A stretch of DNA of 32,556 nt from Synechococcus sp. ARS1019 (lineage in GTDB: Bacteria > Cyanobacteriota > Cyanobacteriia > PCC-6307 > Cyanobiaceae): contig NZED01000031.1 of the NCBI GenBank assembly GCA_002690325.1, positions 6,974-39,529 of the forward strand. The letters run 5' to 3'. The translations under genes were made by a program, and so were the position numbers. The notes under the pieces were generated by a model that was given only the letters and a program-made list of their open reading frames with translations, did no database searches and had not been told where the DNA came from. Below, one piece after another: positions 20,155 through 23,281 of this stretch (its first letter is position 1; the number at the start of each line of letters is the position of its first letter).

Positions 20155-21122
20155 CGCATGCGTTTGTGACGCTCATGCCAGGCCGGCGTTGGCGTCAAAC
20201 GCAGCAGAAAAGGCATCTGGGTGATTGATGGTTTCCCCCCGCTAACCCAAATGGCATGTTCTTCGCTCCAATGCCGTTGCCCGGGAACAATCAAGCGTGA
20301 TTTGGAGGCATGGTCCGGCAGGTAAGCCGCCAGGAATCCTTTTTGTTGGACAAACAGTTGAAGATCAGAGAACAACACACCGTCGTCGGTCTCGATCAGC
20401 TCGAGTAAACCATCGGGCCGCAAGCCATAAATGATGCGGACATCGGCCAATTTCATCTCTCCGTAAACGCCGACATAGGACGCAGGCACGGGCCGCGTGG
20501 TGTTGCTGAAGGCATGCAGCCCACCGATAAACACCCTCAGACGCTGCGACAGCTCTGGGGTGAGGGCGCCATAACCGAATTCGAGCGTTCCGTCGTTGGT
20601 GATCCCAAGCCAGGCACGACCAGCTGCCGCCGCTTTGTTTCCGGCGGCCCAACGCCCATTGCCCATCAACAGATCACCATGCAGTCGCATGCCCAGCTCA
20701 CCGTTGCCGATGCCGCGGGCAAAGGTCGGACCCGATGTAAACAACAGGGCATCGAGATCTGCATTGGCCTCCAGTTCTCGGTTCCAGCCTCCAAAGAATT
20801 CGACAGTGACCCAGCGGGGATCGATTAAGGCACTGGTGTAGCCAATCGCCACGAGCTCTCCATCCGGCCGTTCAACTAGAAGCTCCTGATCCTGGTGCAG
20901 ACGAACGAGTTGATCACGCGAGGGCGGCGGTGGTTCAGGCTCCTGCAGCAATGCAGGCAAAACCACGGGGATGACAGAGCGCGTCGCGGGCGGTTGATTG
21001 AGCCACCAAGCCGTCGTCGCCCCAACCAGGCCAGATGCAAAGCACAAGGCAATCAAATGGAGGGAACGCACCACAAACCCTGTCGGCAAACGCAGTGTGT
21101 GGACTGAAACCAGTCGACGCAA
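20151..21122 (-). CDS. Membrane-anchored conserved hypothetical protein, 323 aa
   Basis: N-terminal TM segment (LHLIALCFASGLVGATTAWW), Pro-rich linker, large extracytoplasmic domain; overlaps the stpA 3' end by 4 bp. Confidence 0.7.
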   Translation of the reverse strand: MRRLVSVHTLRLPTGFVVRSLHLIALCFASGLVGATTAWWLNQPPATRSVIPVVLPALLQEPEPPPPSRDQLVRLHQDQELLVERPDGELVAIGYTSALIDPRWVTVEFFGGWNRELEANADLDALLFTSGPTFARGIGNGELGMRLHGDLLMGNGRWAAGNKAAAAGRAWLGITNDGTLEFGYGALTPELSQRLRVFIGGLHAFSNTTRPVPASYVGVYGEMKLADVRIIYGLRPDGLLELIETDDGVLFSDLQLFVQQKGFLAAYLPDHASKSRLIVPGQRHWSEEHAIWVSGGKPSITQMPFLLRLTPTPAWHERHKRMR

Positions 21123-21132
21123 GTCCAGATCG

Positions 21133-22125
21133 ATGGGTCAAGATCGACCAAACAGATCGACTCTGCGGAGTAACTGCCCTGTGACGGTTGACCTGGCCCC
21201 GTTTCCACCCGTGCACCGCGGAGCTGTGACCACGTTGCAGGTGAATCTGGGTTACCGCTGCAATCAAAGCTGCGCTCACTGCCACGTAAACGCTGGTCCC
21301 ACCAGGACCGAAATGATGGCTGAGGAGCTGATCGATCTCATCCCGGAGGTTCTGCAACGGCGCGCGATGCAGTGTCTTGACCTCACCGGTGGCGCACCCG
21401 AACTGCACCCCAGCTTCCGCCGTCTGGTTGAACAAGCCCGTTCCCTCGGGATCAAGGTGATTGACCGCTGCAACCTCACCATCCTCAGCGAACCGGGCCA
21501 AGAGGATTTAGCCAAGTTTCTGGCAGACCAAAGCGTCAGTGTGGTGGCATCGATGCCCTGTTACAGCAAGGACAACGTCGATCGACAGCGGGGTAACGGG
21601 GTGTTTGAACGCAGCCTGAGCGGCCTCCAACAGCTGAATGCACTGGGCTACGGAACGGGTGATAGCAACCACCGTCTCGATCTCGTTTACAACCCACTCG
21701 GTCCGACACTGCCTCCTCCACAAGCTGCACTAGAGGCGGATTACAAAAGGGAGTTGCATGAGCTGGGGTTGTCCTTTGACAACCTCCTCACCCTCGCGAA
21801 CATGCCGATCCAGCGCTTCGCCAAGCAATTAGAACGCAGTGGAGAACTGGAGTCTTACCAGCGACGACTCGAGAACGCCCACAACCCCGACAACCTTCAA
21901 GCGGTGATGTGTCGCACGCTCTTCAGCGTGGATTGGACAGGGCAGCTCTTCGACTGTGACTTCAATCAGCAGCTCGGGATGGCATGCCATGGGGCGTTTC
22001 AACATCTTCGAGACCTCCTCAATCCAGATCAAAATCCCGACGGTGGCGCTGTGCGAACAGATCATCACTGCTTCGGTTGCACTGCAGGTGCAGGATCCAG
22101 CTGTGGCGGCGCCCTACAAGCGTGA
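21133..22125 (+). CDS. arsS: Arsenosugar biosynthesis radical SAM protein ArsS
   Basis: Radical SAM CxxxCxxC in LGYRCNQSCAHCHVNAGPTRTEMM; C-terminal CFGCTAGAGSSCGGAL, typical of ArsS/DUF3641 proteins. Confidence 0.9.
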   Translation: MGQDRPNRSTLRSNCPVTVDLAPFPPVHRGAVTTLQVNLGYRCNQSCAHCHVNAGPTRTEMMAEELIDLIPEVLQRRAMQCLDLTGGAPELHPSFRRLVEQARSLGIKVIDRCNLTILSEPGQEDLAKFLADQSVSVVASMPCYSKDNVDRQRGNGVFERSLSGLQQLNALGYGTGDSNHRLDLVYNPLGPTLPPPQAALEADYKRELHELGLSFDNLLTLANMPIQRFAKQLERSGELESYQRRLENAHNPDNLQAVMCRTLFSVDWTGQLFDCDFNQQLGMACHGAFQHLRDLLNPDQNPDGGAVRTDHHCFGCTAGAGSSCGGALQA

Positions 22126-22179: not shown

Positions 22180-22401
22180 TTGAATCGGTTTTACGTGTTG
22201 TGCAGCGCGATCACAGCTCTGCTGGTGATGTCCTGCAGCAATGTGGCTGCCAATAACGAGCCTGGTCAGCCGAAACAGGCGATGTTTAAAACAAGAGCTG
22301 AAGCGGAAGCAGCTGCCGCGGACTTTGGCTGCACCGGTGCTCACCAGATGGGATCGATGTGGATGGTGTGCGAACACCACAAGACCACCCCTCACCACTA
22401 A
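22180..22401 (+). CDS. Small putative lipoprotein with DUF3721-type domain, 73 aa
   Basis: Signal/lipobox-like LLVMSCSN; MFKTRAEAEAAAADFGCTGAHQMGSMWMVC. TTG start. Confidence 0.7.
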   Translation: MNRFYVLCSAITALLVMSCSNVAANNEPGQPKQAMFKTRAEAEAAAADFGCTGAHQMGSMWMVCEHHKTTPHH

Positions 22402-22410
22402 GGCGCACCG

Positions 22411-22806
22411 ATGACTGAAGGAGGACATTGCGGAACAAAGCCAAAACCCATCGCTATCGGAATCGCGCCTCTTGGAACGATTTCAATCGGGATTGTCCCG
22501 ATGGGAGTGATCTGTATTGGCATCGTTCCAATGGGGGTCGTGTCCATCGGAGTGGTGGCCATGGGGGTAATCAACGCAGCTGTGGTCGGCATGGGCTTGA
22601 TCGCTGTTGGGGTGAACACCATGGGGGTGATTACCGCAGGGCCGATGAGCATGGGTCTCATCCAAATCCGCTCAACAACCAACCCCCGCTATCTCGCTTA
22701 CCCCTCCAAAGCGGAAGCCGAAGAGCAAGCCAAAAAACTTGGCTGCACCGGTGTGCATCGGATGGGAGATTCGTACTGGATGCCCTGCAACGAGCATCCC
22801 CAGTGA
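22411..22806 (+). CDS. Hydrophobic decapeptide-repeat protein fused to C-terminal DUF3721-type domain, 131 aa
   Basis: Seven tandem units of type xIGIVPMGVI, followed by YPSKAEAEEQAKKLGCTGVHRMGDSYWMPC. Confidence 0.8.
   Translation: MTEGGHCGTKPKPIAIGIAPLGTISIGIVPMGVICIGIVPMGVVSIGVVAMGVINAAVVGMGLIAVGVNTMGVITAGPMSMGLIQIRSTTNPRYLAYPSKAEAEEQAKKLGCTGVHRMGDSYWMPCNEHPQ
22453..22662 (+). repeat. Seven tandem 30-bp/10-aa coding repeats
   Basis: AIGIAPLGTI SIGIVPMGVI CIGIVPMGVV SIGVVAMGVI NAAVVGMGLI AVGVNTMGVI TAGPMSMGLI. Confidence 0.85.
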
Positions 22807-22825: not shown

Positions 22826-23281
22826 TCAGCTTTGGCAATCGGGGCAGATGGCTCTGACGTTGAGACTGGATTCGATCAATTTGAATCCAAACCCTTTTGC
22901 AGCCTGAGCTCCAGCCTCAAGCACTGGCTGGCTTTCAAACTCTTCTGTACGACCACAGCGAATGCAGACCACATGGTGATGATCGCGATGATCTGCCACG
23001 GCCAACTCGAAACGGCGCCCTCCCTCCGTCAGTTCGAGTTCCTGTAAAAAGCCCATATCCGCCAAAAGGCGCAAGGTGCGATACACCGTGGCCAAGGAAA
23101 CCTTGAGATCCAATTCCACGAGCTGCTGATGCACCTCCTCTGCACTGAGGTGGCAACCCGATCCCCGGCGTTCAAACAACTCCAGCACTCGCTTTCGCTG
23201 AGGAGTCAGCCGACGTCCATCTTGATGAAGCTCCTGCTGAAGCGACTCATCCTCTTGAATAGATGCTGAGGAGAGCGACAC
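22826..23281 (-). CDS. Fur-family transcriptional regulator (Fur/Zur/PerR)
   Basis: RRLTPQRKRVLELFERRGSGCHLSAEEVHQQLVELDLKVSLATVYRTLRLLADMGFLQE...HHHVVCIRCGRTEEFE...CPDC. Confidence 0.95.
   Translation of the reverse strand: MSLSSASIQEDESLQQELHQDGRRLTPQRKRVLELFERRGSGCHLSAEEVHQQLVELDLKVSLATVYRTLRLLADMGFLQELELTEGGRRFELAVADHRDHHHVVCIRCGRTEEFESQPVLEAGAQAAKGFGFKLIESSLNVRAICPDCQS

Follow-up and report, generated by a model that had tools for sequence, protein, structure and literature searches.

A DUF3721-fused decapeptide-repeat protein of Synechococcus and the copper associations of its relatives

Synechocystis sp. PCC 6803 has a regulatory system, PetRP, whose targets are petE, petJ and slr0601-slr0602, only four proteins in all (PMC12382314, PMC7896320). 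Slr0601 was found to decrease along with cytochrome c6 at high pH, and for Slr0602, which is co-controlled with it, interactions with plastocyanin and other photosynthetic proteins are reported (PMC12382314, PMC7896320). When copper is low, PetR is reported to activate petJ and to repress petE. CopM, a copper-binding protein of Synechocystis, belongs to the DUF305 family. Here we compare with these systems a gene from Synechococcus sp. ARS1019, located in a stretch of 32,556 nucleotides that we call the window.

An initial annotation of the window proposed a 131-residue open reading frame in which seven near-perfect decapeptide units are fused to a DUF3721-type domain. The length and coordinates of this frame, which starts with ATG and ends with TGA, are borne out, and its features are listed in Table 1.

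Table 1. Features of the repeat gene and of its neighbours in the window
Feature	Position	Strand	Basis
arsS-like radical SAM gene (TIGR04167), upstream	20998..22125	+	family match
DUF3721 exported/lipoprotein-like protein, 73 aa, putative same operon	22180..22401	+	Pfam E=1.4e-16
Repeat and DUF3721 protein, whole gene, 131 aa	22411..22806	+	ORF list, Pfam, homologues, third-position bias
HCGxKPK motif, residues 6-12, N-terminal to repeat	22426..22446	+	alignment of 54 Cyanobiaceae sequences
Seven decapeptide units, residues 15-84	22453..22662	+	GLTT Pfam match, predicted beta strands
DUF3721 domain, residues 97-130	22699..22800	+	Pfam, invariant alignment columns
Fur-family regulator, convergent downstream	22826..23281	-	Pfam FUR

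The repeat units are of the type xIGIVPMGVI and read, in order, AIGIAPLGTI, SIGIVPMGVI, CIGIVPMGVV, SIGVVAMGVI, NAAVVGMGLI, AVGVNTMGVI and TAGPMSMGLI. The proposed glycine at every fifth residue is present at 13 of the 14 such positions with a longest run of eight, a run that was matched by one of 100,000 composition-preserving shuffles. There are indeed seven units, but with a mean pairwise identity of 46% in protein (53% in DNA) the term “near-perfect” is apt only for the first three or four of them. Where residues match between units, 56 of the 97 are encoded by a different codon, and Tandem Repeats Finder reports no array in the repeat DNA. Because the same residues use different codons and the units have diverged, the repeat is not a product of recent DNA slippage; because the unit DNA differs and forms no tandem array, its periodicity is maintained at the protein level. 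The repeat is strongly hydrophobic (GRAVY 1.89) and contains no charged residue.

The frame is under protein-level selection: in the comparison with one homologous locus (L053), the third codon position accounts for 73 of 94 differences, and 64 of the 75 codons that differ are synonymous. Frameshifted or non-coding relatives, which would have spoken against the gene, were looked for; instead the frame is coding, and the aligned Cyanobiaceae homologues retain both the repeat and DUF3721. The fusion is real and conserved; homologues occur in 179 of the 201 Cyanobiaceae genomes sampled. We located 46 loci in named genomes, nearly all of them Synechococcus and Prochlorococcus. Across 54 Cyanobiaceae sequences Cys-7 of the HCGxKPK motif is invariant, and the motif and the repeat are strongly conserved. 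One relative is a decapeptide unit short (L041 1651-2076, genome G056), and one copy carries an in-frame TGA (L025, G010:C1:1375177-1375563), with a tail-less repeat copy nearby (L107). Some Prochlorococcus/Synechococcus-type genomes also have unfused, tail-less repeat copies (L201 4921-5250, L202 5914-6168, L203 6112-6363). A phage origin was considered and gave zero matches; for a plasmid origin the single match is weak and unconvincing.

At the C-terminus, 34 residues span the full model of Pfam DUF3721 (PF12518; model positions 1-33) with E=3.3e-17 and 62.4 bits against a curated cut-off of 27. The motif GCxG(V/A)HxMG...WMPC is present in the family of the window gene, and Cys-112, Gly-114, His-116, Met-118, Gly-119, Trp-123, Met-124, Cys-126 and His-129 are invariant among the 54 Cyanobiaceae sequences, with exactly two invariant cysteines in the DUF3721 of the fusion. 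Other DUF3721 members found here are mostly short exported proteins without a repeat. A phylum-wide sample places DUF3721 in 36 of 292 genomes, all from the window's own family, while the repeat itself also occurs in about 30 sampled genomes of other cyanobacterial families. There, a His/Met-rich tail stands where DUF3721 would be; these tails contain 15.6% His and 10.7% Met, lack Cys, have at least three His in 29 of 32 cases and in several cases are of the MDHSGMDHG type. In some Cyanobiaceae members DUF3721 comes together with a His-rich linker; in the window protein the His/Met-rich tail is absent and DUF3721 takes its place. An alignment of both groups has 12 invariant columns, every one of them in the repeat, and both share the same repeat architecture. 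Since the same repeat precedes either a His/Met tail or DUF3721, the ligand-rich C-terminal module has apparently been exchanged and the repeat retained.

These comparisons shift the candidate metal ligands from the repeat to the C-terminus. The aligned Met side chains of the repeat had been suggested to bind soft metals, a suggestion that finds no support, as those positions vary in relatives (MG or HG). The conserved candidate ligands, judged from sequence, are instead the Cys, His and Met of DUF3721 or the His/Met-rich tail. Soft metals as such, copper in particular, remain the likely theme.

We searched for known folds and repeat families with which the protein might be compared. AlphaFold gave a mean pLDDT of 54 with the Cyanobiaceae alignment (repeat about 45) and of 67 with a wider alignment (repeat about 60-74). 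Both models place one strand in every ~10 residues of the repeat and a helix plus two short strands in DUF3721. By sequence, no relatives with a solved structure were found, and Foldseek returned no significant PDB match for either model; the best matches of the second model are left-handed beta-helix enzymes, which are weak (E>2). The initial annotation had suggested a beta-solenoid or a packed membrane-inserted stack. With one strand per ~10 residues in both models, beta structure is the better guess; the fold is predicted with no more than moderate confidence, and a beta-solenoid or a membrane-associated beta stack is plausible. The window protein scores 53.1 bits against a curated cut-off of 21 for the Pfam GLTT repeat (PF01744), a five-residue Gly-periodic repeat described from nematode proteins, but contains no xGLTT unit; the match reflects periodicity and is no evidence of common function. 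Pentapeptide-repeat proteins share the five-residue periodicity and the likely beta fold, but they are built of A(D/N)LXX units, whereas the window repeat has Gly instead and is uncharged, and no Pfam pentapeptide-repeat match was obtained at E<=1. The literature searched contained no paper on DUF3721 or the GLTT repeat.

The closest link to a described system comes from gene order. At one locus outside Cyanobiaceae (L148) a Ser/Thr kinase gene is followed by a thioredoxin-reductase-like gene, the repeat gene, a gene for a 138-residue protein, DnaE with an intein-splicing domain and a LepA-like gene. In Synechocystis sp. PCC 6803, slr0599 encodes the kinase SpkC, slr0600 the NADP-thioredoxin reductase (NTR) and slr0604 is lepA; slr0603 we take to be dnaE. 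Because the two orders match, the repeat gene of L148, whose product has the same decapeptide repeat, corresponds to slr0601 by position. We therefore treat the repeat gene of this locus as the positional counterpart of slr0601, an identity based on synteny and not on the sequence of slr0601. The initial annotation knew of no characterised function for this architecture; this holds for the molecular function but not for the regulation, since the syntenic relative Slr0601 belongs to the published PetRP copper regulon. There are two differences: Slr0601-type proteins have a His/Met-rich tail whereas the window protein has DUF3721, and Synechocystis has PetR whereas none of 101 Cyanobiaceae genomes yielded a homologue. 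Co-occurrence of the repeat gene with PetR was uninformative as a test because most Cyanobacteriia outside Cyanobiaceae have PetR.

A shared promoter element supports this connection. When the upstream regions of 40 repeat genes were searched de novo for palindromes, GACA-N3-TGTC turned up in 18 of them, compared to one of 577 control upstream regions (p=1e-22). We extended the box to TTTGACANNNTGTCTTTTGA and searched 12 genomes, each of which contains it only a few times; among the sites with at most one mismatch, 20 of the 27 inspected adjoin a repeat gene, petJ or petE. A Synechocystis-like genome (G276) has just two perfect sites, one ahead of the repeat gene and the other ahead of a petJ-like gene. 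Being asymmetric, the box has an orientation: forward at every repeat gene and petJ gene seen, reversed at the petE cases seen. We infer that it is the PetR site. Because the box is oriented as at petJ, and given the reported action of PetR, we predict petJ-like behaviour of the repeat gene, which would be on in low copper. A CopY/BlaI-type operator, TACANNTGTA, was also considered and is not enriched upstream of repeat genes. This regulatory evidence does not transfer to the window gene, because PetR was not found in Cyanobiaceae and the window has no TTTGACANNNTGTCTTTTGA box with up to three mismatches.

Other genes carry the box as well. Outer-membrane-like proteins with a TSGRPDGHAPxGVMGDH motif (L258 1585-2706, and L272 near the box) are possible further members of the regulon. 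Downstream of the box we also see His-rich, apparently exported proteins (L275 1636-2127 in G308; L257 1577-2446 in G305).

The neighbours of repeat genes outside Cyanobiaceae point to copper in part. A PetR-PetP-like pair lies directly downstream of the repeat gene at three loci (L138, L179, L196). Elsewhere the gene is accompanied by cytochrome c and CopC-CopD (L129), an RND pump (L131), a multicopper oxidase and DUF411 (L193, L194) or a heavy-metal-type P-type ATPase (L191). When these categories, together with HMA, were counted as copper-type in a BLAST comparison, they made up 18 of 303 repeat-gene neighbours against 3 of 755 control genes of the same genomes (p=6e-8, an optimistic value because the categories and the reference set were picked from contexts already seen and related genomes are not independent). 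The copper-type neighbours are spread over six of about 19 genera. Against the copper reading, the neighbours counted include no copper-type gene in 32 of the 40 relatives outside Cyanobiaceae, and two of the unfused picocyanobacterial copies (L201, L203) lack any ligand-rich tail.

Within Cyanobiaceae, stand-alone DUF3721 genes have copper associations of their own. A Pfam-based test in 20 genomes found that 9 of 18 DUF411 genes (p=1e-18) and 5 of 6 DUF305 genes (p=2e-12) have a DUF3721 gene no more than 1.2 kb away, p-values that are optimistic because related genomes are not independent. CopM, of the DUF305 family, is comparable as a small His/Met-rich cyanobacterial copper protein, but its sequence is unrelated; it is exported and helical, and its induction follows the addition of copper. 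An RND pump is found near DUF3721 at L285, parallel to the RND pump near the repeat at L131. Genes for other metals also occur: an ABC-3 (Mn/Zn-type) transporter adjoins some DUF3721 or repeat genes (L206, L208, L288, L290), and HupE lies beside a stand-alone DUF3721 gene at L288. In a further context, which suggests an arsenate link, a DUF3721 lipoprotein-like gene (L295 4911-5120) has genes for an ArsR-like regulator and a GAPDH-like protein in its vicinity. Many stand-alone picocyanobacterial DUF3721 genes (L281-L298) are followed by a gene for a membrane protein of about 90 residues (RxxHRWLVPxAAxPLLxTA...); the one tested, at L284, had no Pfam match.

We consider it probable that the protein is a low-copper-responsive, membrane-associated or self-assembling one that presents a soft-metal-binding C-terminus, and that it belongs to a family of small copper-homeostasis proteins spread across cyanobacteria. 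For the family we regard the assignment to copper homeostasis as well supported, for the window protein as moderately so. The family relationship, the tails, the box in common with petJ and petE and the gene-neighbourhood links come from the present analysis and the regulation of Slr0601 from publications, while we infer the fold, metal binding and its mechanism, the location, the direction of action and the continued service of the picocyanobacterial form to copper. The hydrophobic, uncharged Gly-periodic beta-repeat would act as a scaffold, membrane-associated or self-assembling. It would carry a swappable C-terminus with soft-metal ligands, which is DUF3721 (Cys2-His2-Met) in marine picocyanobacteria and a His/Met tail in most cyanobacteria with the protein. 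Outside picocyanobacteria, PetR/PetP would switch the protein on in parallel with cytochrome c6 under copper scarcity, and the protein might bind copper and hand it over or recycle it close to the membranes in which plastocyanin and oxidase receive theirs. Picocyanobacteria lack PetR and have the protein as a fusion to DUF3721, whose stand-alone copies often sit in copper clusters.

The locus itself speaks against copper for the marine form. The immediate neighbours in the window are arsS and a Fur-family gene, with no copper genes, and for this reason arsenic, iron, zinc and manganese stay alternatives. The fusion could then use a membrane scaffold to carry a thiol/His module, by which one of these elements is buffered or sequestered, and be co-transcribed with arsS or placed under the Fur-family regulator. 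In the window the gene comes after arsS and the DUF3721 lipoprotein gene at short gaps (9 bp to the latter) and faces the Fur-family gene; among 53 Cyanobiaceae loci, 30 have the DUF3721 partner immediately upstream in the same orientation, 27 have arsS nearby upstream and about 28 a convergent Fur-family gene downstream. The ABC-3, HupE and ArsR-like contexts fit such a role too. Yet the neighbours differ between clades while the protein persists, and in statistical terms both halves are associated most strongly with copper genes, so we regard service to another metal or metalloid as unlikely. At eight loci, including L205 (4277-5428) and similar Prochlorococcus loci, the DUF3721-repeat pair has near it, on the other strand, the gene of a His/Met-rich, weakly OprB-like protein (GGMNHHDHHLHDDSHMNM); this protein was considered as a relative of the box-controlled outer-membrane-like proteins and has no similarity to them.

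Could the protein instead serve the photosynthetic electron chain as a redox or assembly accessory, for example one that tunes complexes for cytochrome c6 use, with a Cys/His/Met module that is structural (disulfide) and not metal-binding? Co-regulation with petJ and petE by PetRP, the reported interactions of Slr0602 and the exactly two invariant Cys of DUF3721 would agree with this. The tails outside picocyanobacteria, however, are Cys-free and His/Met-rich as is typical of metal binding, and DUF3721 genes cluster with DUF411 and DUF305 and not with photosynthesis genes, which makes such a role quite improbable. The hydrophobic, uncharged repeat and its beta prediction would also suit a coat or membrane filler, structural or self-assembling and either beta-solenoid or amyloid-like, that has nothing to do with metals and whose C-terminus is incidental; given that the C-terminal module is conserved or swapped for another ligand-rich one and that the gene belongs to a copper regulon, we give this hardly any credence.

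Should the copper reading hold in full, which we propose tentatively and think possible rather than likely, the family would represent a new structural class of copper-handling protein, with a hydrophobic Gly-periodic beta-repeat scaffold and exchangeable metal-binding ends, that extends from Synechocystis-type cyanobacteria to Prochlorococcus and scavenges or recycles copper under limitation, and DUF3721 would be a copper-binding domain not recognised before. The gene is near-universal in Cyanobiaceae, a family that includes the ocean's most abundant photosynthetic organisms, and the literature searched assigns it no function. Its link to Slr0601, itself an uncharacterised member of the four PetRP-controlled proteins, merges two unknowns into one copper question. 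How cyanobacteria manage scarce copper thereby becomes testable at this gene, and DUF3721 gains a likely role.
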